Source: Haloferax sp. Q22 (GTDB lineage: Archaea > Halobacteriota > Halobacteria > Halobacteriales > Haloferacaceae). Taken from it: a DNA stretch of 64,000 nt. Under the pieces are notes generated by a model. That model searched no databases. It worked only from the letters and a program-made list of their open reading frames with translations, and had not been told where the DNA came from. The stretch spans positions 1 to 64,000 of the forward strand of contig NZ_LOEP01000009.1 in assembly GCF_001482285.1 (NCBI RefSeq), in the 5' to 3' direction. Positions 8,211-21,893 of this stretch are shown piece after piece; the first letter of the stretch is position 1, and each line of letters starts with the position of its first letter. The position numbers were made by a program, and so were the translations under genes.

Positions 8211-9239
8211 TCAGATGCGCCAGTTCAGCGAGAACGAGTCGTTCGTCGCGGTATTGTTCGTTCCGGTCGTGCTGTTGGTCGTCCCGTTCGTGGAGTTTGT
8301 GGTCGTCTTCGTCTGCTCGGCCGGCTCACCCGTATCGGCCGTGACGGTTCCGCTCGTCAGTTCGCCCAGCGGGGCCTGGATAGCGTAGCTCGGCGTCTCG
8401 ACTTGAATCGTGCTCTGGGCGTCGACCTGCACGAACTTCAGTTCGAGCGCGTACGAGCCGTCGGACCCGATTTCGGTCGCTTCGACCTGGTCGGTCTGGG
8501 GGTGGAACGCCCACGCCGTCTCGCCGGCGTCGAGCCGACTCGTCTCGCCTTCGATGGTGCGAACCGTGTAATCCCGGTTCGTATCGGACCCCGCGAGCGG
8601 GTAGTTGCGGTCGAGCCACGCCTGGAAGCCTTCGTCGATTGCGTACACGTTCTCGAAGCCGGTTGCGAGCAGCATCGCCGCCCGGAGCGACGACAGGTGG
8701 TGCGGGCAGTGGCAGTAGGTCACCACGCGGTCCGCCTCGTTCCAGTCGTCCGTGGGGTCGAGCGTCCGACCGTCCGGTGCGGGGCTGAGAACGGATCCGA
8801 AGATGTGGGAGACATCGTATCCGGTCTCGCTGCGGGCGTCGACGAAGCGCGCCTCCCCGCGCGCGTACCAGTAGTACGCGTCCTCGATGGGGACGAGAGG
8901 GACTTCGACGGTCACGTCGTGCACCTCTCGCGTGAGCGTGTCGTACGAACTCGTGTCGATGGACCGCTCTTCCGGCACGGTGTCGAACTCCGGCGGGTAG
9001 CCGTCCGAGGGCTTGGAATCGGTCGGCAGGTCGTCGCCCTCGCGCGGGCCTCGCATCTGATTCTCCGGCGCGGCCGTCGTCGTTTGCGTCGTCGTCTGCG
9101 TCGCGTTGGCGGTGGTCGTCTGGGTCGACGTGGACGTCGTCCCTTCGGGGGACCCGCTCGAACAGCCCGCGAGCCCGGCAATCGTCGCTGCACCGGTCAA
9201 CTGGAGGAACCGTCTGCGGCTCGACTGTCGTTCTGTCAT
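8211..9239 (-). CDS. Tat lipoprotein with rhodanese-like domain
   Basis: A 342-residue protein: a twin-arginine lipoprotein signal (SSRRRFLQLTG, lipobox Cys26), a Thr/Gln-rich low-complexity linker, a rhodanese domain (about 100-210) and a C-terminal beta domain ending in another Thr/Asn-rich tail. The rhodanese active loop reads YCHCPHHLSS, with cysteine at the usual sulfur-carrying place. It probably handles sulfur or a thiol outside the membrane. The ATG at 9239 is preferred to the GTG one codon before it. The Asn-Ser/Thr-rich tail offers N-glycosylation sites. Confidence 0.75.
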   Translation of the reverse strand: MTERQSSRRRFLQLTGAATIAGLAGCSSGSPEGTTSTSTQTTTANATQTTTQTTTAAPENQMRGPREGDDLPTDSKPSDGYPPEFDTVPEERSIDTSSYDTLTREVHDVTVEVPLVPIEDAYYWYARGEARFVDARSETGYDVSHIFGSVLSPAPDGRTLDPTDDWNEADRVVTYCHCPHHLSSLRAAMLLATGFENVYAIDEGFQAWLDRNYPLAGSDTNRDYTVRTIEGETSRLDAGETAWAFHPQTDQVEATEIGSDGSYALELKFVQVDAQSTIQVETPSYAIQAPLGELTSGTVTADTGEPAEQTKTTTNSTNGTTNSTTGTNNTATNDSFSLNWRI

Positions 9240-9356
9240 CACCCATCCGTACTGAGCAGTAGTGGTTTATTATATACAGAGTAAGCGCTGTACGCCCGTA
9301 CTCGCGTGGAAAGACGGACTACGAGCGACGAACGTATCGAGCCGCTAAACCGCCGG

Positions 9357-9644
9357 TCACGCGGTCTGCTTGAGATACCGTTTCTCCCAGCGACGACGCG
9401 TCTCGACCGCTTCGCGGCCCTCGTCAGTGAGTGAGTACTCGTTGGTCCGTCCGTTCTTGCTCCCTTTGTTGACGAGGTCCTTGTCGACGAGTTCGTTCAG
9501 GTTCGTGTACACGCGGCCTGTGAGCAGGTCGCGCCCCTGCGTCTTTTCGAGTTCGGTCTTGATAGTCTGTCCCGAGGAGTCGCTCATTCCTCGCACAACG
9601 AACAGCAAATCGCGTTGAATCGCGGTTAATTCGTGTACGCACAT
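9357..9644 (-). CDS. PadR-family transcriptional regulator
   Basis: A 95-residue winged-helix protein (MCVHELTAIQRDLLFVVRGM...). The PadR pattern is clear: a helix with QGRDLLTGRVYTNLNELVDKDLV and the wing GRTNEYSLTDEGREAV. Haloarchaeal PadR proteins of this size are stand-alone dimeric regulators. A longer start five codons upstream is possible. Its target is unknown; the glmM gene lies divergently 334 bp away. Confidence 0.75.
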   Translation of the reverse strand: MCVHELTAIQRDLLFVVRGMSDSSGQTIKTELEKTQGRDLLTGRVYTNLNELVDKDLVNKGSKNGRTNEYSLTDEGREAVETRRRWEKRYLKQTA

Positions 9645-9978
9645 AGGGGATGCCACGGACGCACCCTACATGAACTTCGGAGATAGTTGTGGTACTAAAG
9701 AACCCCTAGAACGGGTGGAACGGTCGTTTCTCGGAGTTTGCTCTCATAACCGACGACGACTGAGTGAATAGACACATCATAAATCGGGGTCGCCCCGACC
9801 GCTCGAACGCACGAAATCACGCACACCCGGACGAGCGCGCCATCGTTCCGCGACTGCCGACCAGCGGACGCCGGGCGATGACCGGCCCGCTAACTGCGCC
9901 CATCCGGAAGCGAACGCCCCGACCCAGCAGTTCCTTACTCATCCCATAGTAAGGAACCCCGCCGACCACGTGCAGAGT
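9645..9978. other. Divergent intergenic region between padR-like gene and glmM
   Basis: No gene supported. It carries the promoters for the leftward PadR gene and rightward glmM. I see no clear strong TATA box; ACATCATAAATC near 9774 is a weak candidate. A PadR operator would be expected close to 9650 if the gene is autoregulated, but I could not identify one. Confidence 0.4.
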
Positions 9979-11304
9979 ATGTTTGGAACGAGCGGCGTTC
10001 GCGGTGCCGTCGGCGAAGACGTGACGGCGGAAGTGGCGCTCTGTATCGGAAGGGCGCTCGGTAGCGAGGTCTCCGGACGCGTCGTCGTCGGCCGCGACGC
10101 GCGCGAAAGCGGAACGATGCTCGAACACGCACTCGTCGCCGGGATTCTGGAGTGCGGAATCGACGTACTCCGACTCGGAACCCGGCCGACACCGTCTATC
10201 GCCCGCGCCGTCGAGTGGTTCGACGCCGACGCCGGTGCCGTCGTCACCGCCTCGCACAACCCGCCGGCCGACAACGGCGTGAAGCTCTGGACCGCGTCCG
10301 GCCGGGCGTTCGATTCGGCCCAGCGCGCCGCCATCGAGCGACGTATCGAAGACGAGGACTACGAACTCGCCGCGTGGGACGGCGTCGGAACCGAGCGAGA
10401 CCGAAGTATCGAAAACCGCCACCGCGACGCGCTCAAATCGAGCGTCGACCTCGAAGACAACCTCTCGGTCGTCGTCGACATCGGGAACGGGACGGGGCGG
10501 CTCACGGCGGACGCGCTCTCGGACCTCGGCTGTACGGTGTCGACGCTCAACGGCCAACGCGACGGTCGGTTCCCCGCCCGTCCGAGCGAACCGACCGACG
10601 AGACGCTTCGCGGGCTCAAGTCCCACGTCGCCGCGACCGACGCGGACCTCGGCGTCGCCCACGACGGGGACGCAGACCGGATGATGGCCGTCGACGGCGA
10701 CGGAAACTTCGTCGACGGCGACGCGCTCCTCGCCCTGTTCGGGCGCGAGGCCGCGTCAGAGGGCGACCGAATCGCGGTTCCGGTGAACACGAGCCTCGCC
10801 GTCGACGACGCGGTCGCGACCGTCGGCGCAGACGTAGTCCGGACGCGCGTGGGCGACGTGTTCGTCGCCGAGAGGTGTGCCGAACCGGGCGTCGTCTTCG
10901 GTGGCGAGCCCTCCGGTGCGTGGATTTGGGCCGACGAGACGCCCTGTCCCGACGGCCCGCTCGCGGCGTGCAAACTCGTCGAGTTCGTCTCGCGGCGCGG
11001 CCCGCTAGCCGACCTCGTGGACGATATCGACGCCTACCCGCTTCGCCGCGAGAGCGTCGAGACGACCGACAAAGCGGGCGTCCTCGAACGCGTCGAAGCG
11101 ACGGTGCGCGAGGAGTACGACGACATCGATGACCGCGACGGACTCCGTGTCGAGACCGACGACGGGTGGTTCCTTGTCCGGGCGAGCGGAACACAACCGC
11201 TCGTGCGGGTCACCGCCGAGGGCCGGTCCGAAGCGGCGACTGACCGACTGTTCGACGAGGCGCTGGCACTCGTCGAGTCTCGCACCGACACCGTTCGCGC
11301 CTGA
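9979..11304 (+). CDS. glmM: Phosphoglucosamine mutase-type phosphohexomutase
   Basis: A 441-residue alpha-D-phosphohexomutase. It begins MFGTSGVRG; the catalytic serine loop is TASHNPPADNG (Ser92); the metal loop is DGDADR; the sugar loop is GGEPSG; and the phosphate loop is RASGTQPLVRV. Interconversion of glucosamine-6-P and glucosamine-1-P is inferred from the neighbouring glmS and glmU genes; phosphomannomutase or phosphoglucomutase activity is possible since the family overlaps. The ATG at 9979 is preferred to the GTG three codons earlier because the family starts at this motif. Confidence 0.85.
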   Translation: MFGTSGVRGAVGEDVTAEVALCIGRALGSEVSGRVVVGRDARESGTMLEHALVAGILECGIDVLRLGTRPTPSIARAVEWFDADAGAVVTASHNPPADNGVKLWTASGRAFDSAQRAAIERRIEDEDYELAAWDGVGTERDRSIENRHRDALKSSVDLEDNLSVVVDIGNGTGRLTADALSDLGCTVSTLNGQRDGRFPARPSEPTDETLRGLKSHVAATDADLGVAHDGDADRMMAVDGDGNFVDGDALLALFGREAASEGDRIAVPVNTSLAVDDAVATVGADVVRTRVGDVFVAERCAEPGVVFGGEPSGAWIWADETPCPDGPLAACKLVEFVSRRGPLADLVDDIDAYPLRRESVETTDKAGVLERVEATVREEYDDIDDRDGLRVETDDGWFLVRASGTQPLVRVTAEGRSEAATDRLFDEALALVESRTDTVRA

Positions 11305-11541: not shown

Positions 11542-11601
11542 GACTGGACATGTGAAGGCTCGAAGTTTCTCCGTTTTATGACGTTCAGTAAATTGGATAC
11601 A

Positions 11602-12969
11602 ATGAACTCGAAATTTACTCGTCGCACCTTTCTCACCGCCGCCGGCGGACTCGCGCTGCTCGGAGCTGTCGGAACTCGACCCGCCGCTGCGGGGTTCTCG
11701 CCGGGCGTCGTCGGGACCGCGCCGTACCTCCGCGACAGGCTCTACCCGACGATGGGCACCGACGATTCGAACCCGACGCTCGTCGTCTACGTGAACTTCC
11801 TGTCGGAGTCCTCGCAGTACTTCGTCCAGCACAACCTCGAAGACATCGTCCGCGAGTACGTCCAGACGGGCGACCTCAACCTCGAACTGCGGTTCCTCTC
11901 GTACAGGCCGGACGCCATCGACACCTACCTCGTCGGCGACGACGAGGGCGAAGCCCGCGCCGCCCGCGCCGCTCACGGCGTCTGGGACGTCGAACCGGAG
12001 AACTTCTGGCAGTTCTTCGAGTTCATGTTCTGGAACTTCACGACCAAGACGTACACCCACGCTCGGTTGGAATCCTACATGGACCTCGCGGGTGTCCGCA
12101 ACATCACGAAAATCGCCAACCGCGCCTACGAGGACCGCTACGACAGCCTCGTCCGCTCGGCGACCGACGAGGCCGTCCGCTACGGCATCGCTGGCGTGCC
12201 GCGAGTTCGCTTGCTTCGAGACCACAAGGACGGCAACTATTCCGACATCCTCGGCTGGATTCGGACCCGTCTCGACCGGGTCGACGCGGGGTCGGTCAGC
12301 ACCCACTCGCTCCTTCCGGGAACGAAGTACGAAACGCCCGTCTACGTCATCGACTCCGGAAAGCCCGGCCCGACGGCGTTCGTCGTCGGCGGTATCCACG
12401 GCGAGGAACCCCAGGGCTACCACGCGGCGGACCATATCAGACATCTCCGCCCGACCGGCGGCAAGATCGTCGTCGTCCCCCACGCGAACGCGCCCGCAAT
12501 CAGCATCGGTGCTCGGTACACCGAAGACGGCGACCTGAACCGGCAGTTCCCCACGGGGGCGCAGCCCACGTCCCGACTCGCGCGGGCGCTCTGGGACGAA
12601 CTCGTCTCGCACGACCCCGACGTCGTCGTCGACCTCCACAGCTCCAGCGGCATCTACAAGCACGACGGGAAAGTCGGGCAGGCGGTCTTCCCGACCCGCG
12701 CAGCCCCGATGAACGCGGTGAACGCCTGCGACTACGTCAACGAGCAGTACATCGACCTCTCGGAGTACCCGTCGTACTACGACTTCGACTGCGGGAACTC
12801 CCTCGATGGTTCGCGACCGCTGTTCGTCCACAAGGTGTACGGCGACCTGCACCTCCCCAGCTACCTCGTCGAGACGACCCGCAAAGGGACGACCCTCGAA
12901 GACGCCGTGACGTGGGAAGTCGCCGTCGCTCGCGACCTGCTGTGGCAACACGGCGTCTACCACGGGTGA
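11602..12969 (+). CDS. Secreted DsbA-like domain fused to aspartoacylase/M14-type zinc hydrolase
   Basis: A 455-residue protein with a Tat signal (FTRRTFLTAAGG). A thioredoxin/DsbA-like domain lies at about 55-215 and has no CxxC: the usual place reads NFLSESSQYF. A hydrolase domain follows at about 235-455 with GGIHGEE (zinc ligands His266 and Glu269), DLNRQFP (Arg314) and VDLHSS (third ligand His346), as in succinylglutamate desuccinylase/aspartoacylase. The thioredoxin part is homologous to the protein encoded at 18370. It probably acts outside the membrane on an acylated amine or peptide. An in-frame ATG at 11578 would add eight residues. Confidence 0.75.
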   Translation: MNSKFTRRTFLTAAGGLALLGAVGTRPAAAGFSPGVVGTAPYLRDRLYPTMGTDDSNPTLVVYVNFLSESSQYFVQHNLEDIVREYVQTGDLNLELRFLSYRPDAIDTYLVGDDEGEARAARAAHGVWDVEPENFWQFFEFMFWNFTTKTYTHARLESYMDLAGVRNITKIANRAYEDRYDSLVRSATDEAVRYGIAGVPRVRLLRDHKDGNYSDILGWIRTRLDRVDAGSVSTHSLLPGTKYETPVYVIDSGKPGPTAFVVGGIHGEEPQGYHAADHIRHLRPTGGKIVVVPHANAPAISIGARYTEDGDLNRQFPTGAQPTSRLARALWDELVSHDPDVVVDLHSSSGIYKHDGKVGQAVFPTRAAPMNAVNACDYVNEQYIDLSEYPSYYDFDCGNSLDGSRPLFVHKVYGDLHLPSYLVETTRKGTTLEDAVTWEVAVARDLLWQHGVYHG

Positions 12970-13069: not shown

Positions 13070-14251
13070 ATGCAAGCGATTCTACTGGCAGCCGGACGCG
13101 GCACGCGAATGCGCCCGCTGTCGAACGAGGTTCCGAAACCGATGCTGAGCGTGGCCGGACAGCCAATCGTCGGCCACACCGCCGCGGCGGCGGTCGAAGC
13201 CGGTGCCGACGAACTCGTCGTGGTCGTCGGGTACGGCCAAGAGACGGTGCGCGAACACTTCGGCTCGTCCTACCGCGGCGTCCCGGTCTCGTACGTCGAA
13301 CAGGACGAACAGCAGGGGACCGCAGACGCGGTTCGCGCCGCCAAGGAGCACATCGACGGCGCGTTCGCCGTCCTCTACGGAGACAACCTCTACGACCCCG
13401 CCGGAATCGACGCCCTGTTCGACGCGGCACCGAGCATCGCGTCGGTCCGCGTCCCGAACCCCTCCAACTACGGCGTGTTGAACGTCAGCGACGGCGCGGT
13501 GGCGGAAATCGTCGAAAAACCCGACGCTCCGCAGAACGACCTCGTCAACGCCGGCGCGTACGTGTTCCCCGCCGAGGCCCGCGACATGCTCGACGTACCG
13601 CTGAGCGAGCGCGGCGAGCGCGAGCTCACCGACGTTCTCGACCGGGTCATCGACCAGTTCAACGTCTCTCCGGTGACCCTCGACCGCTGGATGGACGTTG
13701 GACGACCGTGGGAACTCCTCGAAGCCAACGAGTGGAAGCTCAAGACGTTCGACCGCCGCATCGACGGCGACGTGAGCGACGACGCCACGGTCCAAGGCGA
13801 CGTGGTCGTCGAGGAGGGAGCGACCGTCAAAGACGGCTCCGTCGTCGAGGGGCCCGCCTACATCTCGGCGGGCGCGACGGTCGGACCGAACGCGTACGTG
13901 CGCGGTTGCACGTTCGTCGGGCCCAACGTTCACGTCGGCCACGCCGTCGAAATCAAAAACAGCGTCCTCCTCGCGGAGACGAGCGTCGGCCACCTCTCGT
14001 ACGTCGGCGACAGCGTCGTCGGCCGACGCGTCAACCTCGGCGCGGGAACGAACGTCGCCAACCTCCGCCACGACGGCGAGGCCGTCTCCGTGACGGTCAA
14101 AGGCGAACGGGTCTCGACCGGCCGCCGAAAGTTCGGCGCGGTCGTCGGCGACGACGCGAAGACCGGCATCAACACGGCGCTCAACGCCGGGGTGAAACTC
14201 TCCGAAGGCGCTCGTACCATGCCCGGCGAGACCGTGGCGACCGACCGATAA
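13070..14251 (+). CDS. glmU: Bifunctional sugar-1-phosphate nucleotidylyltransferase/acetyltransferase (GlmU type)
   Basis: A 393-residue protein. The N-terminal nucleotidyltransferase domain has LLAAGRGTRMRPL and PKPML (nucleotide binding) and GDNLYD (metal Asp). The C-terminal left-handed beta-helix is built of hexapeptide repeats (about 245-390: ATVQGDVVVEEGATVKDGSV and so on). It is predicted to acetylate glucosamine-1-P and couple it to UTP, making UDP-GlcNAc. This archaeal form is shorter than bacterial GlmU. It is one of two paralogues in this locus, the other at 20646-21893. Confidence 0.85.
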   Translation: MQAILLAAGRGTRMRPLSNEVPKPMLSVAGQPIVGHTAAAAVEAGADELVVVVGYGQETVREHFGSSYRGVPVSYVEQDEQQGTADAVRAAKEHIDGAFAVLYGDNLYDPAGIDALFDAAPSIASVRVPNPSNYGVLNVSDGAVAEIVEKPDAPQNDLVNAGAYVFPAEARDMLDVPLSERGERELTDVLDRVIDQFNVSPVTLDRWMDVGRPWELLEANEWKLKTFDRRIDGDVSDDATVQGDVVVEEGATVKDGSVVEGPAYISAGATVGPNAYVRGCTFVGPNVHVGHAVEIKNSVLLAETSVGHLSYVGDSVVGRRVNLGAGTNVANLRHDGEAVSVTVKGERVSTGRRKFGAVVGDDAKTGINTALNAGVKLSEGARTMPGETVATDR

Positions 14252-14460: not shown

Positions 14461-16170
14461 TCAGGAGTCGGTGAGCATCCGCACCGGCGGACACAGCACG
14501 TCGTTGGGAGTGAGGACGCTGTCGTCGTCCGCGGCGTTCATCCACGTGGTGATGTCGTTGATTCGGAGTTTGACTCTGACCGGAAGTTCGTGGATGCTCG
14601 GGTAGCCGGGGAAGAGCTTCCGGTCGAGTTCGTTCCGTTCGTACTGCGCCTCCATGTCGGGCCACGGAGAACTGAACGGCTCGATACCGGGGACTTTCCG
14701 GCGGACGAACTTCTCGATTTGGTTCCTCCTGAACGAGTTGTGCGGTCTGTCCGGCGGCCGGTGGCGGAAGATGTCCGGGTTGAGTTTCTGCATCGCCGCC
14801 ATCATCGTGTTCGTGTTGCGCTTTTCGGGCGGGGTCTTCAGGTGCCAGTCGATGAGTTCGGCGTCGGCGGCGACGAACGACTCGATGTAGTTGTCCGATA
14901 GCTCGAAGTGGAACGGGACCGACGGCTGGTTTTGGATCCCGATGAGTTCGATACTGTCGTAGACGTTGTCGTATCGGTCCGACCACTTGTCGAGTTGCTC
15001 GTCGACGACATCGTTGATGAACTCCATGCTCGTGTCGAACTCGTCGTAACACTCGGGGAAGACGTGGTCACACGCCGGGTGGTAGCCAAACTTCGACGAC
15101 AGCACCTCAGCGGGGTCCGGGTCAGGGTCCAGACCCTGCAACGGGAACCGATTGCCGAACACTTCGACGACGTTCTGGGGAAGGAAGTGTCCGCGGAGGA
15201 ACGTATCGAAGAGCAGTCCGTGAAAGACGGTGTCGGCGTCCATCTTTTCGTCACAACCCGCGTGGTGGACGTGGACCGACTCGCGCGTGCCGAGCGAGTA
15301 CTCGATGACGTCCTCGTCGACGTTGATGTAGTCGTCGTCGGGGACGAGCGTCTCGTGGTCGGCACCGTACTGGTTCGCGATGTTCCGGGCGGCTTCGACC
15401 TCGGGGTGGTCGGGCGCGCCGAGCGTGTAGCAGACGTCGATGTCGGGGTGCTGGGCGACGATTGCTCGCGAGTCGTAGCCGCCGCTCAGGAGCACGCCCT
15501 GTTTGCCGGGGTAGTTCGCCCGACGGGCTATCGCCCGTTCGAGGCGCGCCGCGAGCTCGTCGACGTAGTCGAACTCGTCGGGGTCGGCGGGGTCGTAGAC
15601 GAACCGGGAGAGCGTCCCCGACTCGTCGGCGGTGAAGTAGCCGTCGAACGGGATACAGCTGAGTCGGCTGTAGACCGTCCGCTCGTCGACGACGACCCCC
15701 ATGTGGATGTACTCGAGGAGGCCGCGAGTGTCGACTTCGAGTCCGGTTGCCGCCGAGAGGACGCGCTGTGGGTTCGTACCGAACACCCGCCCGTCGGGCG
15801 TGTCGGTGTAGAAACACTGCCACGTGCGGGCGGGGTCCGAAGCGACCATCGCGTCGCCGTCGAATTCGACGAACACGAGGAACGACCCATTGAGTTCACC
15901 GAACGCGTCGGCTCCGACCGCGGCGTACCGTTCGAGGGCGTACTCCGCTGTCGGGGTCGAAACGTCATCGGGGGAGAACGCCTCGCCCCAGACGATACAG
16001 CTCCCTCGCTCGTCTCGATACGTCGACGAGCGCCCCGGGAACCCGAGCGCGGGGTCGCGGATAGCGACAGTCGCGCGCTCGCCGTCGGCGACCCAGTCGA
16101 AACTCGACCGAGACGCGAGGTCGTCGAACGCCCCGTCGTCGTCGAGGACGCCAAACAGTTCTTTGTTCAT
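14461..16170 (-). CDS. Asparagine-synthetase-like amidotransferase lacking glutaminase cysteine
   Basis: A 569-residue protein with an N-terminal Ntn-type glutaminase-like domain (about 1-180) and a C-terminal ATP-pyrophosphatase synthetase domain. The PP-loop LLSGGYDSRA (SGGYDS at 229-234) is intact. The N-terminus is MNKELF: the nucleophilic Cys after Met, present in true glutamine-dependent AsnB, is missing, so the enzyme cannot use glutamine in the usual way. It follows glmS by 24 bp on the same strand. Homologues of this type often modify small molecules or surface sugars; an amide or lactam-forming role is possible. True asparagine synthesis is less likely. Confidence 0.75.
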   Translation of the reverse strand: MNKELFGVLDDDGAFDDLASRSSFDWVADGERATVAIRDPALGFPGRSSTYRDERGSCIVWGEAFSPDDVSTPTAEYALERYAAVGADAFGELNGSFLVFVEFDGDAMVASDPARTWQCFYTDTPDGRVFGTNPQRVLSAATGLEVDTRGLLEYIHMGVVVDERTVYSRLSCIPFDGYFTADESGTLSRFVYDPADPDEFDYVDELAARLERAIARRANYPGKQGVLLSGGYDSRAIVAQHPDIDVCYTLGAPDHPEVEAARNIANQYGADHETLVPDDDYINVDEDVIEYSLGTRESVHVHHAGCDEKMDADTVFHGLLFDTFLRGHFLPQNVVEVFGNRFPLQGLDPDPDPAEVLSSKFGYHPACDHVFPECYDEFDTSMEFINDVVDEQLDKWSDRYDNVYDSIELIGIQNQPSVPFHFELSDNYIESFVAADAELIDWHLKTPPEKRNTNTMMAAMQKLNPDIFRHRPPDRPHNSFRRNQIEKFVRRKVPGIEPFSSPWPDMEAQYERNELDRKLFPGYPSIHELPVRVKLRINDITTWMNAADDDSVLTPNDVLCPPVRMLTDS

Positions 16171-16194: not shown

Positions 16195-18003
16195 TTATTC
16201 GACCGTGACACTCTTCGCGAGGTTTCGCGGCTTGTCTATCTCGCGGTCCAACTCGGTCGCACAGTAGTACGACAGAAGCTGTAGTTGGACGTTCGCGAGG
16301 AGGTTCTCACAGACGGGATGTCTGTCGGGAACGTAGAGCTGTTCGTCCGCAGTGTCCATTATCTGGTGGTCCGACGGGCCGAGCGCGACGATAGGCGCGC
16401 CGCGAGTCTTCGCCTCCTTGGCGTTTGTCACCGTCTTGTCGCTGCCGTCGGTACAGACCGCGAAGACGGGGGTCCGGTCGGTGACGAGCGCCAGCGGACC
16501 GTGCTTGAGCTCGCCGGAGGCGAACCCCTCCGCGTGCTCGTAGGTGATTTCCTTGAATTTGAGCGCGCCCTCCTTGGCGACCGAGCAGCCGAGTCCGCGG
16601 CCGATGAAGAAGTACGCGTCCATGTCGAGGTACTCGCGAGCGAGTCGCTTGGCGTCGCTCGTCTGGAGCACCCGTTCGACGGCGTCTGGGAGTTCGGCCA
16701 GATCGGAGACGAGTCGGTCGAGGTTGTCCGCGGGGACGCCGGATTCGACGATGTCCGAGAGGTGCTGGCTGAGGAGCGTGAGCACTGCCGCCTGCGACGA
16801 GAACGTCTTCGTGGCCGCGACGCCGATTTCGGGGCCGGCGCGGATGTAAATCGGTTCGTCGGCCTCGCGGGCGGCGGTCGACTGCACGACGTTCGTCACC
16901 GCGAGCGTTTCGACGCCCTCGTCGTTGACCTGCCGAAGTGCGCTGAGCGTGTCCGCTGTCTCGCCGCTCTGCGTAACCGCGATGAACAGCGTGTTGTCCG
17001 TCAGCGACCCCGTCGTCAAGTCGTACTCGCTCGCGCGAATCGCGCGCGCCGGAACGTCACAGCGGTTCAGGAGGCTCGCACCGAACAGCGCGGCGTGGTA
17101 CGAGGTGCCGCATCCGACGAGTTGGACGGAGTCAATGTCCGAGAGGTCGGTCTCGATGTCGAGGTTGATGTCGCCAGCCTCCTGGTCGAGACGGCCCTCG
17201 AGCGTCTTCTGGAGCGAGGTCGGTTGCGTGTGAATCTCCTTGAGCATGAAGTGGTCGAACTGCCCCTTTCCGGTCTCGTCGGGGTTCCAGTCGACCGTCT
17301 CGACTTCGCGCCGCACCGTCTCGTCGTTCTCGTCGGTGATGTCGACGCCGTCGGCGCGGACCTCGACGGTGTCGCCGTCTTCGAGGTAGACGACGTTCCG
17401 CGTGTGGTCGAGGAAGGCGGGCACGTCGCTCGCGAGGTAGTAACTACTCTCGTCGACGCCGAGGACGAGCGGCGACCCCTGCCGGGCGGCGTAGATGGAG
17501 TCGTTGCCGTCGACGACGACCGCGATTGCGTAGCTTCCTTCGAGCGCATCGACCGCGTGCTGGAACGCCGCCAGCGGTTCGTTTCCGCGGTCGAGGTAGT
17601 GGCTGACGAGGTTCGGAATGACCTCGGTGTCGGTGTCGCTCGTGAACTCGTAGCCCTCCGCTTCGAGGGTCTCCTTGAGCGTCGCGTAGTTCTCGATGAT
17701 GCCGTTGTGGACCGCAGCGACCTGATTCGTCTGGTTCGTATGCGGGTGCGCGTTCTCGTCGGTCGGCGGCCCGTGGGTGCTCCACCGAGTGTGTCCGACA
17801 CCGAGCGTCGCGCTCGATTCGACCCCGTCGATGGTGTCCTTGAGGTCGGAAACCTGACCCGAGCACTTCCATACGTCGAGTCCCGAGCCGTTTTTCACCG
17901 CAATACCGGCGGAGTCGTAGCCGCGGTACTCCAGTTTCTCGAGTCCGGTCACGAGCGGGCTGATAGCCCGCTTCTCACCGACGTGAGCGATGATTCCGCA
18001 CAT
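16195..18003 (-). CDS. glmS: Glutamine-fructose-6-phosphate aminotransferase (isomerising)
   Basis: A 602-residue protein with the full GlmS layout. MCGIIAHVG starts it (Cys after Met is the glutaminase nucleophile), followed by GHTRWSTHG and HNGIIENY. Two SIS domains (about 285-600) carry CGTSYHA, TQSGETADT and EGALKFKEITYEHAEGF, ending KSVTVE. It makes glucosamine-6-P from fructose-6-P and glutamine, the entry to amino sugars. I chose the ATG at 18003 because the cysteine must follow the initiator; GGAGG at 18013-18017 supports it. It is first in a two-gene operon with the asparagine-synthetase homologue. Confidence 0.95.
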   Translation of the reverse strand: MCGIIAHVGEKRAISPLVTGLEKLEYRGYDSAGIAVKNGSGLDVWKCSGQVSDLKDTIDGVESSATLGVGHTRWSTHGPPTDENAHPHTNQTNQVAAVHNGIIENYATLKETLEAEGYEFTSDTDTEVIPNLVSHYLDRGNEPLAAFQHAVDALEGSYAIAVVVDGNDSIYAARQGSPLVLGVDESSYYLASDVPAFLDHTRNVVYLEDGDTVEVRADGVDITDENDETVRREVETVDWNPDETGKGQFDHFMLKEIHTQPTSLQKTLEGRLDQEAGDINLDIETDLSDIDSVQLVGCGTSYHAALFGASLLNRCDVPARAIRASEYDLTTGSLTDNTLFIAVTQSGETADTLSALRQVNDEGVETLAVTNVVQSTAAREADEPIYIRAGPEIGVAATKTFSSQAAVLTLLSQHLSDIVESGVPADNLDRLVSDLAELPDAVERVLQTSDAKRLAREYLDMDAYFFIGRGLGCSVAKEGALKFKEITYEHAEGFASGELKHGPLALVTDRTPVFAVCTDGSDKTVTNAKEAKTRGAPIVALGPSDHQIMDTADEQLYVPDRHPVCENLLANVQLQLLSYYCATELDREIDKPRNLAKSVTVE

Positions 18004-18369
18004 GTCAGCAACCCTCCGAGGACTGCGAGACACGCGCGGTCCCGGTCGTCGTTGGCTGTGGTCGGTTCAGAGCGGACGGGGTGGAGATGTTCGACTCCCC
18101 CAGGAGTTGTTTCTGATGTGTCATGGTTTGTGGGGTCAGCGGGTGAGCTGTCCGTGAAACCACGATACGGGGAAGCGGCCATTACTATAGACGCGCTAAG
18201 GGACGGTGGCGACTCCACAACCGAAACAAACGCGTCGCTGTCGTGCGGTTTTTCGGAAACGTGACATCGGCGGGTCGAACGACGAATTAGGCACCGAACA
18301 GGTCGTAGAGCGCGCGCCGGGATGGCTTACACGGCCGATAATAATGCCGTTTACGACTAGGTGTGGTGT
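18004..18369. other. Divergent promoter region between glmS and DsbA-like lipoprotein gene
   Basis: No gene supported. On the left it holds the glmS Shine-Dalgarno (GGAGG on the minus strand, 18013-18017). On the right, GATAATAAT at 18337-18345 sits about 28 bases before the ATG at 18370, the spacing expected for a leaderless transcript. The minus-strand TATA-like CTATAGTAA near 18185-18192 may serve glmS, leaving a leader of about 160 bases. Confidence 0.45.
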
Positions 18370-19398
18370 ATGGTTGACCGAGAGACAGACAGACGGAGTA
18401 TTCTCAAGCTATCCGGCGTCGCGGCCATCGCATCACTGAGCGGCTGTGCGAGCTTCGCCAAGCAGGCGAACAGCGGCGGAGCGGACACGCCGGCGGGGCA
18501 GTCGGAACAGCAGACGACGACCGCGCAGCCCGAGACGCGGACGGCCGCAGGCAACGAGACCGACGCGAACGCGTCCGTCGAGATGCGTCCGAAGACGGTG
18601 TCCGACCCGTCGTTCGAACTCCAGACGGGTGCCCTCCGGTCGCTGCAGACCGACGCGCGGTATCCGACCATCGGCACGGCCGCCACGACGGTAACGGTCT
18701 ACGGGAGCTGGAAATGCCCGTACACCCAGGAGTTCGTGCGACAGCAGTTCGGCGGGCTGGTCGAGGACTTCGTCGCGACCGGAGACCTCTCCATCGAGTT
18801 CCGGAACGTGGCGTACATGGACGGCGAGCCGTATCTCGGGCCGGACGCGCCCCGGGCGAGCGAAGCCGGGCTCGCGGTCTGGAACATCGACCCCGAGTCG
18901 TTCTGGACGTACTTCTCCTACGTCTTCGTGAACCAGCCGCAGGAGCGCCGCGACTGGGCGACGACCGAGAACCTCGTCCGATTCGCCGAGGAGGCGGACA
19001 CGAACGGCATCGACCAGATTCGGCGGGCGATTCGCTCGCGCGCGTACGCCCAGAGCGTCCAACTGTCCGCCGACAGCGCGGCCGAACTCGGCATCACGAC
19101 CGTCCCGCGCGTCGCCACCGACGACGAGGTGACGGCACCGACGGTCGACCCCGAAGCCACGAGAGAACAGCTTGAGCGGGTCGCGAACGGCGGGTCGACG
19201 TTCGGCGGAACCACAGAGAACAACTCCACGTTCGGCGGCAATTCGACCGAAAACGACACCTCGTTCGGAGAGTCTACGACTGAAAACGACACCACCTTCG
19301 GGTCGTCGTCCGGCGGAAACGAGACCGGAGCGACGAACAACAGTTCGACGACGTTCGGAAGCAACGAGACGACCGAGTCGGACGACGACGCGTTCTAG
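18370..19398 (+). CDS. DsbA/thioredoxin-like Tat lipoprotein with sequon-rich tail
   Basis: A 342-residue protein: Tat lipoprotein signal (TDRRSILKLSG, lipobox Cys26), then a DsbA-like domain (about 95-265) with WKCPYTQEF, a C-P-Y-T form keeping only the first active-site cysteine, and the cis-Pro region TTVPRV. The last 70 residues are degenerate repeats around STFGGTTEN and TSFGESTTEN, dense in N-X-S/T sites. A single-cysteine DsbA-like protein cannot form the usual internal disulfide, so it may act as a reductant, isomerase or scaffold. It is homologous to the first domain of the protein at 11602. Confidence 0.8.
   Translation: MVDRETDRRSILKLSGVAAIASLSGCASFAKQANSGGADTPAGQSEQQTTTAQPETRTAAGNETDANASVEMRPKTVSDPSFELQTGALRSLQTDARYPTIGTAATTVTVYGSWKCPYTQEFVRQQFGGLVEDFVATGDLSIEFRNVAYMDGEPYLGPDAPRASEAGLAVWNIDPESFWTYFSYVFVNQPQERRDWATTENLVRFAEEADTNGIDQIRRAIRSRAYAQSVQLSADSAAELGITTVPRVATDDEVTAPTVDPEATREQLERVANGGSTFGGTTENNSTFGGNSTENDTSFGESTTENDTTFGSSSGGNETGATNNSSTTFGSNETTESDDDAF
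19190..19380 (+). repeat. Degenerate tandem repeat encoding Thr/Asn/Gly-rich tail
   Basis: The coding sequence repeats a unit of about 11-13 codons of the form (S/T)-(T/S)-F-G-(G/E/S)...T-E-N-(N/D) at least four times. The repeat is clearer in protein than DNA, so it is old or selected. At least eight N-X-S/T sequons occur in this span, suggesting a glycosylated stalk next to the cell surface. Confidence 0.55.
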
Positions 19399-19535
19399 TT
19401 CTTCGCGGTTCTGTCGCAGTCTGGTTTTTCGGTGTGAGCCGTCTGCGTCGGCCGGTCGCCGTGCGATGCAGATAACTCGTTGACGGAGATACGCGCCCAG
19501 CACCAGGAATCCGCGAGAATTAGTTGACTATGTAA

Positions 19536-20605
19536 GAGGGTGTCATAGAACGATTAGCACACCAAAGAGCAGGGTGAATGCTGAGGTGGAATGAGCTCAG
19601 CGACCCTGCAAGATGATCCTTCGGTCGAGTCGTTCTTCAATGTCGTGGAGACAGAGACCCTAGCGCTGTTCGAGCACCTCTCCTTCGACTTTCTCGAAGA
19701 GTTCGACGTGTTCGCCCCGACGCAGACGGGGCGAACACGAGACCACGAGCCACCAGATCTGATGCGTGGCTTTCTCCACTGCTACTACAAGGACATCTAC
19801 GGCATTCGACCGGTTGAACGAGAGCTTCGGAACACGGTTGTCTGGTTGAGCTGTGGCTTCGATCGACCGCCGTCGAGAGACGCGGTCGATCGCTTCCTCA
19901 CCGACCTCCAACACGTCGTTGACGATGTCTTCACCCACCTCGTCGAACAGGCCGCCTGCCGCGGCCTGCTTGACTTGACCTACTGCATCGATTCGACCGA
20001 CGTGAGGGCGATGCCAGCCGACCCAGACGCGTCAACGTGCTACGATCCAACCGACGACGAGTACTACTACGGCTACGGCTGTACGATCGTCTCGACCGGG
20101 CAAAAGATACCGATTGCAGCGGAGTTCACCGAGAGCAAACAAGCGCCAGAAGAGACGGCGATGCGCGTCACACGTGACGCGCTCGCCGTCGAGCAACCGA
20201 TCTGGATGGTTGGTGACAGCGCCTACGACACGCTCGACTGGCACGACCACCTGCTGGCCGCAGGGATCGTGCCAGTCGCTCCGTACAACGCACGAAACAC
20301 CGACGACCCGAAAGACATCGAGTACAGGGTCGAAGACCGGATCGACGAACACAGTGAGGACGTTCATCTGAAGCAATCGACGCTAGACAAGACGTACAAC
20401 CGCCGGAGTGGCGTCGAACGAACCAACGAATCAGTCAAGGACTGCGGCCTCGGGCGAACGCACGCCCGAGGCCGCGTTCACGCACGAGCGCAGGTGGTTC
20501 CTCGCGCTGTGTCTTCGCCTCGTCGTCGCAATCACCAACTACGAACGTGGAGACAATCCGGGAAGTACCGTGATCACGGTGTGAGAACTCTTCTATGACA
20601 CCCTC
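19536..20605 (+). mobile_element. Insertion sequence, 1070 bp, IS4/ISH-type with 15-bp terminal inverted repeats
   Basis: GAGGGTGTCATAGAA at 19536-19550 is perfectly repeated in inverse orientation at 20591-20605. Beyond 15 bp the ends still partly match. One transposase frame fills the element. No perfect target duplication is visible: the flanking bases (ACTATGTAA before, ACCATGAAC after) agree at 6 of 9 positions only, so the target copy has decayed, or the element arrived by rearrangement. It lies between the DsbA-like gene and the second glmU. Confidence 0.85.
19591..20598 (+). pseudogene. DDE transposase with C-terminal frameshift
   Basis: The DDE motifs are present: IDSTDVRAM (first Asp), VGDSAYDT (second Asp) and RSGVERTNE (Glu). 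After the GRVHARAQV segment (about 20460-20500) the reading frame changes. The conserved-looking end (FLALCLRLVV, then AITNYERGDNPGS, ending STVITV and a stop) is found one base out of frame, stopping near 20583. A single extra G in GGTGG near 20492-20497 would explain it. The in-frame tail is basic and unlike a transposase. The element is therefore probably inactive on its own, unless the frameshift is programmed or a sequencing error. Confidence 0.75.
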
Positions 20606-20645: not shown

Positions 20646-21893
20646 TCAGTCGTCGTCGGTGGTCGGCGAGTCGCCGTCCGTCTCGCCGCTCGCACCGTCG
20701 TCGATGCGGTCGTAGAGCACGGACTCGCCGGGTTTGACCGTGCCGTCGGTCGGGATTCTGACGCCCGCGTTCAGCGAGGCGTTGATGCCGGTTTTCACCC
20801 CGTCGCCGAGGACGACGCCGTACTTCCGACGGCCCGAGGAGACGAGTTCGCCCTTGAGCATCTGCCGGACCGGTTCGCCGTCGTGGCGGAGGTTCGCGAC
20901 CTTGGTCCCCGCGCCGAAGTTCACGTCGCGGCCGAGGAGGCTGTCGCCGACGTACGAGAGATGGCCGACCGTCGCGCCCTCCATCAGGACGCTGTTTTTC
21001 ACCTCGACCGCGTGGCCGACCTTGGCGTTCTCACCGACGAGCGTGTGCCCGCGGATGTAGGCCTTCGGCCCGACGGTGGCTCCGTTGCGGACGAGCACCG
21101 GCCCTTCGATGACCACGCCGGAGCGAACCGTCGCGCCCTCCTCGACGACGACCGGTCCGTCGAGTTCGGCGCGCTCGGACACGTCGCCGTCGATTCGCGG
21201 TTCGAGTTCGCCGAGTTTCCACTCGTTGGCTTCGAGGAGTTCCCACGGGCGACCCACGTCGAGCCAGCGGTCGAAGGCGACGCCGCGCACGTCGTAGGCC
21301 TCGCAGGTCGCCGCGAGCACGTCGGTCAGTTCGAGTTCCCCGCGGTCGCTCTCGTCCACGTCGAGCCAGCCGTGGGCTTCGGCCGGGAAGACGTATGCAC
21401 CGGCGTTGACGAGGTCCGACGGCGGGTGCTCAGGTTTTTCGACGACGCCGGTGACGAAGCCCTCGTCGTCGGTGTCGAGGACGCCGTAGGAACTCGGGTC
21501 GTCGACGCGGAACGAACCGACCGCAGGCGTCCCCTCGTACAGCGTCGAAAGCGACGGCACGTCGTACAGCGCGTCGCCGTTGAGCACGACGAACGGTTCG
21601 TCGGGGTCGAGATGGGGGGCCGCGGTGCGGACCGCGTCGGCCGTCCCGCGCTGTTCTGACTGCACGGCGAACTCGACCGGGACGCCGCCGCGCTCGTCGC
21701 CGAAGTAGTCACGCACGTCAGCGGCCTCGTAACCGACGACGAGCGTGATGTCCGTCGCGCCGGCCGCGACGGCGGCGTCGGCGGTGTGCGCGACGAGCGG
21801 CCGGTCGGCCACGGGGAGCATCGGTTTGGGTCGGCGGTCCGTGAGCGGACGCATCCGGGTGCCGCGGCCGGCGGCGAGAATGACGGTCTGCAT
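20646..21893 (-). CDS. glmU: Second GlmU-type nucleotidylyltransferase/acetyltransferase
   Basis: A 415-residue paralogue of the protein at 13070. Nucleotidyltransferase motifs are VILAAGRGTRMRPL, PKPML and LNGDALYD; a hexapeptide-repeat acyltransferase domain covers about 250-390 (GDVSERAELDGPVVVEEGAT...). The two share long near-identical stretches (GRPWELLEANEWKL, VEKP, VGHLSYVGDS, VANLRHDGE). It has an extra acidic C-terminal tail. Two copies suggest two different amino sugars or two acceptors rather than simple redundancy. The IS element ends 40 bp beyond its stop. Confidence 0.82.
   Translation of the reverse strand: MQTVILAAGRGTRMRPLTDRRPKPMLPVADRPLVAHTADAAVAAGATDITLVVGYEAADVRDYFGDERGGVPVEFAVQSEQRGTADAVRTAAPHLDPDEPFVVLNGDALYDVPSLSTLYEGTPAVGSFRVDDPSSYGVLDTDDEGFVTGVVEKPEHPPSDLVNAGAYVFPAEAHGWLDVDESDRGELELTDVLAATCEAYDVRGVAFDRWLDVGRPWELLEANEWKLGELEPRIDGDVSERAELDGPVVVEEGATVRSGVVIEGPVLVRNGATVGPKAYIRGHTLVGENAKVGHAVEVKNSVLMEGATVGHLSYVGDSLLGRDVNFGAGTKVANLRHDGEPVRQMLKGELVSSGRRKYGVVLGDGVKTGINASLNAGVRIPTDGTVKPGESVLYDRIDDGASGETDGDSPTTDDD

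Follow-up and report, generated by a model that had tools for sequence, protein, structure and literature searches.

A cysteine-less DsbA-like domain fused to a predicted exported zinc hydrolase in a haloarchaeal glycan cluster

The closest described relatives of the protein considered here fall on either side of a domain boundary. On one side are the DsbA/BdbD oxidoreductases (Thioredoxin_4 / DSBA in Pfam; BdbD, 3eu3), to which its N-terminal domain, D, is homologous over the whole length and with which it shares the cis-proline loop and a predicted extracytoplasmic location; unlike them, D is without any cysteine and is fused to a hydrolase. On the other is the succinylglutamate desuccinylase/aspartoacylase family (PF24827; DoeB, 3cdx), whose HxxE...H zinc ligands, DLNR motif and catalytic Glu recur in the C-terminal domain, H. 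H differs from AspA-type proteins in its predicted export and in a catalytic domain of about 220 aa, as against 330-354 aa in the matched chains, and from DoeB in lying far below the equivalog cut-off. The M14/M99 peptidases Csd4 and MpaA are of the same superfamily, with Csd4 the top PDB profile match, but the gene for H has glycan-cluster neighbours and its host is archaeal, with no peptidoglycan. Thioredoxin folds without active cysteines, used for binding, are familiar from the b domains of PDI; unlike these, D is on an exported archaeal hydrolase and is exchanged between enzymes of one glycan cluster. A literature search found no paper on a thioredoxin-aspartoacylase fusion, nor was a reported activity, structure or glycan product found for any member of the fusion family.

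The fusion gene and its distribution

The gene lies in a 64,000-nucleotide stretch of Haloferax sp. Q22 DNA (contig NZ_LOEP01000009.1; hereafter the window), and its features and neighbours are collected in Table 1. A sequence-only reading of the window had taken the ORF for a secreted fusion, in one gene, of a DsbA-like domain with a hydrolase, and that the ORF is real and a one-gene fusion is now confirmed. Orthologues are of equal length with 77-93% identity, and the domain-architecture check put forward at the time found both halves in one ORF in 10 of 391 genomes sampled from the class; with the fusion conserved in these ten, it is not an annotation artefact. On length conservation and dN/dS the artefact or pseudogene reading is rejected for the window copy. 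(The ORF has a further in-frame ATG at 11578.) The aligned orthologues have an RR motif and a hydrophobic stretch, as candidate Tat substrates would, with a TAT_signal Pfam score of 13.7 bits against a cut-off of 22.7. Public H. gibbonsii and H. mediterranei records call the gene ‘succinylglutamate desuccinylase/aspartoacylase family protein’, a name that misses both its architecture and its context.

Table 1. Features of the fusion gene, its product and its neighbours (positions in the window)
Feature	Position	Strand	Basis or remark
Rhodanese-domain protein, Tat-type	8211..9242	-	syntenic island member
PadR-like regulator	9357..9656	-	syntenic island member
glmM-like phosphohexomutase	9970..11304	+	conserved upstream neighbour
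D-H fusion gene	11602..12969	+	455 aa; Pfam domains, orthologues
Tat-type signal peptide (TRRTFLTAAGG)	11602..11691	+	sequence; Pfam TAT_signal 0.064, sub-threshold
Cys-less DsbA/BdbD-like domain D (residues 31-226)	11692..12279	+	Pfam, 18370 alignment, profile matches to BdbD
S68-E-S-S71 in place of CxxC	11803..11814	+	alignment with KCPYT family members
V199-P200 cis-proline loop motif	12196..12201	+	VP or IP in every fused copy
AspA/M14-superfamily zinc hydrolase domain H (about residues 232-455)	12295..12966	+	PF24827 5.4e-15; profile matches
H266-G-E-E269, predicted zinc ligands	12397..12408	+	invariant in family alignment
N313-R314, predicted substrate-carboxylate binding pair	12538..12543	+	invariant
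H346, predicted third zinc ligand	12637..12639	+	invariant
E424, predicted catalytic base	12871..12873	+	invariant
glmU-like sugar-1-P nucleotidyl/acetyltransferase	13070..14251	+	conserved downstream neighbour
Asparagine-synthase-like (AsnB) protein of glycan cluster	14461..16170	-	conserved neighbour
glmS (GlcN-6-P synthase)	16195..18033	-	conserved neighbour
D paralogue, secreted, single domain cysteine (KCPYT)	18370..19398	+	Pfam, alignment to D, synteny

Nine of the genomes with the fusion are Haloferacaceae-type (family f1) and the tenth, G047, is of another family; named carriers are Haloferax gibbonsii, H. prahovense, H. larsenii, H. elongans, H. mediterranei and Halobellus rufus. At the site of the redox motif the fused copies have SxxS-like, SDPA or SSYS sequences, with cysteines absent throughout, and the motif state on the D tree needs three changes, so that cysteines were probably lost more than once, a single origin still being compatible. 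Comparison of the window gene with six orthologues (dS 0.11-0.8) gave dN of 0.03-0.13 for D and 0.035-0.165 for H; purifying selection on D is no weaker than on H. A search of viral contigs gave no match.

Second copies exist. H. massiliensis has two at different loci (L041:6001-6871, L042:6001-6847), both broken by one identical out-of-frame deletion (about codons 89-252). Outside it they differ, one being 93% and the other 83% identical to the gene in the window; the common deletion suggests that a broken gene was duplicated late or that gene conversion took place. The second copy in G243 (L088:6443-13611; L091) adjoins a gene for a Tat-type protein of 1310 aa whose C-terminal domain is of the heparinase II/III kind, and beside it is also a 464-aa propeller-like protein with weak ASST/BNR similarity. 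The broken H. massiliensis counterpart of this copy has the same heparinase-II/III-like and propeller neighbours.

The two domains

The absence of CxxC from D, seen at the outset, is borne out: SESS occupies the motif, the only cysteines of the whole protein (C376 and C397) are both within the H half, and the motif cysteines are missing from every fused copy. The cis-proline motif is VP in fused copies and IP in G047, with none lacking it. Pfam matches to D are sub-threshold (Thioredoxin_4 2.7e-4 on residues 50-202, DSBA 8e-4). The resemblance to the protein encoded at 18370, also part of the original claim, holds at 33% identity over 165 aa (E 3e-19), with LSESS opposite KCPYT. Seven fused sequences, all Cys-less, make a profile that finds BdbD at 5.2e-5, and a wider D-family profile (A3) does so at 9.3e-15 over the full domain length. 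By homology D is a DsbA/BdbD relative, and from its motif one that would not act as an oxidoreductase. Structure prediction, another check envisaged, was less informative: AlphaFold (AF2) gave a pLDDT of 33.6 for the full protein (7-row alignment) and 46.2 for D alone (10-row alignment), and although the top 20 Foldseek matches of the D model are all DsbA/BdbD-type, their TM is ~0.4 or less, which agrees with the homology without proving it. Because both models are of low confidence, the thioredoxin fold of D rests on sequence homology. NF041057 (the Rcas_1661 family of thioredoxin-like (seleno)lipoproteins) matches D weakly (2.6e-5) and the 18370 paralogue at 3.6e-11, but neither belongs to it, their scores being 24 and 43 where 190 is required.

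Haloarchaeal relatives of D mostly have a single cysteine (KCPxT/S) instead of two. An exported DsbA-like family of this kind (L057-L073, L081-L084) includes members with acidic or lectin-like tails, and some members adjoin H genes outside glycan clusters.

For H, AstE_AspA_cat (PF24827) matches residues 255-385 at 5.4e-15 (55.9 bits against a cut-off of 25). His266, Glu269 and His346, named from the outset as zinc ligands, are present, and in a diverse alignment of the H family they are invariant, as are N313, R314 and E424; we take N313-R314 to be the substrate-carboxylate binding pair of the superfamily and E424 the catalytic base. When the family profile is run against the PDB, Csd4 is best (5.6e-13), followed by AspA-type proteins (2e-12) and DoeB (2e-10), with MpaA also matching, whereas a single-sequence search with H matches DoeB and AspA-type proteins; Pfam and the single-sequence search favour the AspA type. 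Membership of two narrower families was considered and rejected: the DoeB equivalog (TIGR02994) matches weakly (6e-9) with 35.3 bits against a cut-off of 402.7, and Peptidase_M99 (Csd4-like) is a near miss at 25.1 against 27 bits. One H relative passes the latter cut-off (38.2). H is predicted to be a zinc-dependent amide hydrolase, with deacylase and peptidase-like activities both in play. The term ‘deacylase’ used in the sequence-only reading names one candidate activity; the profile fits the carboxypeptidase Csd4 as well as it does AspA-type proteins and DoeB.

Glycan clusters and the exchange of domains

What the sequence-only reading lacked is the glycan-cluster context, which is the main functional clue. 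The order rhodanese-PadR-glmM-fusion-glmU is common to Haloferax, Halobellus, G142, G218 and G291; AsnB and glmS follow at every such locus except in Halobellus and G218, and an 18370-type paralogue lies farther along the island in most fusion loci. Eight fusion-less Haloferax genomes are also without the island glmU copy, having only a ~60% copy. The gap between fusion and glmU gave no RNA-fold signal (z -1.0). H. gibbonsii and H. mediterranei carry the island on megaplasmids, where it runs on into genes for GT39, ATP-grasp, DUF354 and two nucleotide-sugar dehydrogenases. In the window genome this further part is at the end of another contig, C6. The last 88 bases of C6 are identical to window positions 20518-20605, the end of the transposase region, so that an insertion element separates the two parts of the island, and the window to the right of the transposase may have been joined through an IS copy or a rearrangement. 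The transposase-type element itself (19535-20605) directly follows the 18370 gene and splits the glycan island. Beyond it, at 20646-21893, is another glmU-like gene, probably the core copy, which has 60% identity with that of the island.

The genes with which the fusion is co-located recur in other haloarchaea as a cluster of glmSMU, NSD, DUF354, GT39 and AsnB, often with NodB deacetylases. H is 8-16 kb from a GT39 gene in 37 of 42 hand-matched genomes, which were picked from listed rows, are mostly of one family and are not a random sample. Three of these clusters were inspected, and in each NSD, DUF354, AsnB and NodB-like deacetylases are also present and H bears a C-terminal PKD domain. H is a recurrent member of the haloarchaeal glycan cluster. 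The cluster includes genes for uronic sugars derived from GlcNAc. In published EPS, GlcNAcA is a constituent in H. mediterranei and 2,3-diacetamido-glucuronic acid in H. denitrificans, and a neutral EPS without amino-uronic sugars is reported for H. gibbonsii ATCC 33959 (PMC3191746). Since this last strain carries the fusion, the known EPS may be distinct from what the cluster makes.

Most H proteins are without D, and many are exported proteins of about 270-300 aa. That the halves are separate genes in relatives, which had been named as potential evidence against a fusion, is so in many genomes, with the two adjoining in several lineages, but the conservation of the fusion in ten genomes stands beside it. 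An unfused long-type D is within 2.5 kb of an H gene in 10 of 22 genomes (genera g60, g71 and g27), where chance would give 0.077, though 7 of the 10 belong to one genus and the independent count is accordingly small. The adjacent H partners fall in two separate H clades, neither being the fused clade, and in g60 and g27 the pair is outside any recognisable glycan cluster.

The module that accompanies H varies (D, PKD, lectin-like or none), and D is not restricted to H. In homologous clusters of G376, G213, G233 and G328 its fusion partner is a beta-helix protein. In G233 and G328 the C-terminus of the right-handed beta-helix protein is a Cys-less D (YPNT), and the cluster has, besides this protein, an H with a lectin-like extension (an H_lectin match of 0.0015 in G328), NodB deacetylases and a GT39 relative. 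G376 and G213 have the beta-helix-D proteins in an NSD-DUF354-GT39 cluster, and a search of either genome gave no strong H match. The converse holds in Haloferacaceae, the window genome included, where beta-helix proteins are without D and D is on H. Within this one pathway, then, the exported protein that bears D differs between families. In G123 D is joined to lectin-like repeats (weak H_lectin, 0.095). The NSD end of the cluster encodes exported beta-helix proteins (L121, L122, L125, L129) that are homologues of the corresponding half of the beta-helix-D proteins and have a weak pectate-lyase/epimerase-type Pfam match.

Possible function

We give a probability of roughly 0.55 to the reading that the fusion is an exported zinc hydrolase of a surface or extracellular glycan cluster in which D is a non-redox docking or binding module. 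The protein would be exported by Tat and act within the pathway for that glycan, where H would most likely trim or edit acyl or amide groups on a glycan of GlcNAc-derived uronic sugars; D, its redox chemistry lost, would bring the hydrolase to the glycan or to a partner from that pathway. Carboxylate binding and amide cleavage of the AspA/M14 type would suit N-acyl uronic sugars or amide-linked substituents, and the AsnB-like and ATP-grasp genes could add substituents of the latter kind. Where NodB deacetylases occur, N-deacetylation may be their task. The binding role for a redox-dead D, first suggested from the sequence, is plausible and gains from purifying selection, from the absence of cysteines in all fused copies and from the exchange of D within the glycan cluster, such exchange between exported proteins being the pattern expected of a docking or binding module. 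Similarly, H occurs with D, with a PKD or lectin-like module or with none, which suggests that a single enzyme is directed to its target by different means. A broader proposal, that the Cys-less DsbA-like fold is a transferable, non-catalytic glycan- or partner-binding module traded among exported hydrolase, beta-helix and lectin-like proteins of one surface-glycan cluster, with H editing that glycan, is offered tentatively, at somewhat less than even odds.

Against glycan editing are the neutral EPS reported for H. gibbonsii, a carrier, and the close fit of the H profile to a peptidase, Csd4, no worse than to AspA. H could instead be a carboxypeptidase-like M14 enzyme, akin to Csd4 and MpaA, that trims surface peptides or glycopeptides, with the groove and cis-proline of D binding peptide. 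The PDB ranking, the short catalytic domain, the Peptidase_M99 Pfam matches and the retained cis-Pro are all in its favour, but Pfam and the single-sequence search point to AspA-type proteins, the neighbouring genes make sugars and glycans rather than peptides and, to our knowledge, archaea have no murein; we regard it as unlikely. The resemblance to DoeB and AspA in the PDB, with the weak NCBIfam DoeB match far under its cut-off, could alternatively reflect extracellular deacylation of small N-acyl amino acids or osmolyte precursors for nutrient scavenging, the glycan neighbours being incidental. This is less probable still: H is linked to the GT39 glycan cluster in many genomes, and its modules (D, PKD or lectin-like) suggest that the target is a macromolecule.

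Other alternatives concern D. Thioredoxin folds can serve as chaperone-like domains, and D, directly N-terminal to H and under purifying selection, might be an intramolecular folding or stabilising domain that helps the hydrolase to fold after export in high salt, with no part in targeting. Most H proteins of the same family nevertheless occur without D, and D is also found attached to beta-helix or lectin-like proteins, or as a free-standing protein with one cysteine, which makes this role rather improbable. That D is functionless, the fusion being in decay or an accident of in-frame joining, is very improbable: the two broken H. massiliensis copies would fit, but from Haloferax to Halobellus D is conserved at least as much as H, and the fusion is kept in several genera and present in a distant genome.

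The making and modification of archaeal extracellular polysaccharides are little known, and a pyrF knock-out system for H. mediterranei is cited in the same source (PMC9943897). The exported enzymes around the fusion gene define a recurrent haloarchaeal glycan cluster that includes a predicted zinc hydrolase, and they point to a non-redox use of a thioredoxin-type fold as an exchangeable module. Haloferax, with gene knock-outs available, allows both ideas to be tested. The fusion itself is a variation on an AspA/M14 hydrolase with an inactive thioredoxin-fold module, and its interest comes mainly through the recurrent glycan cluster.
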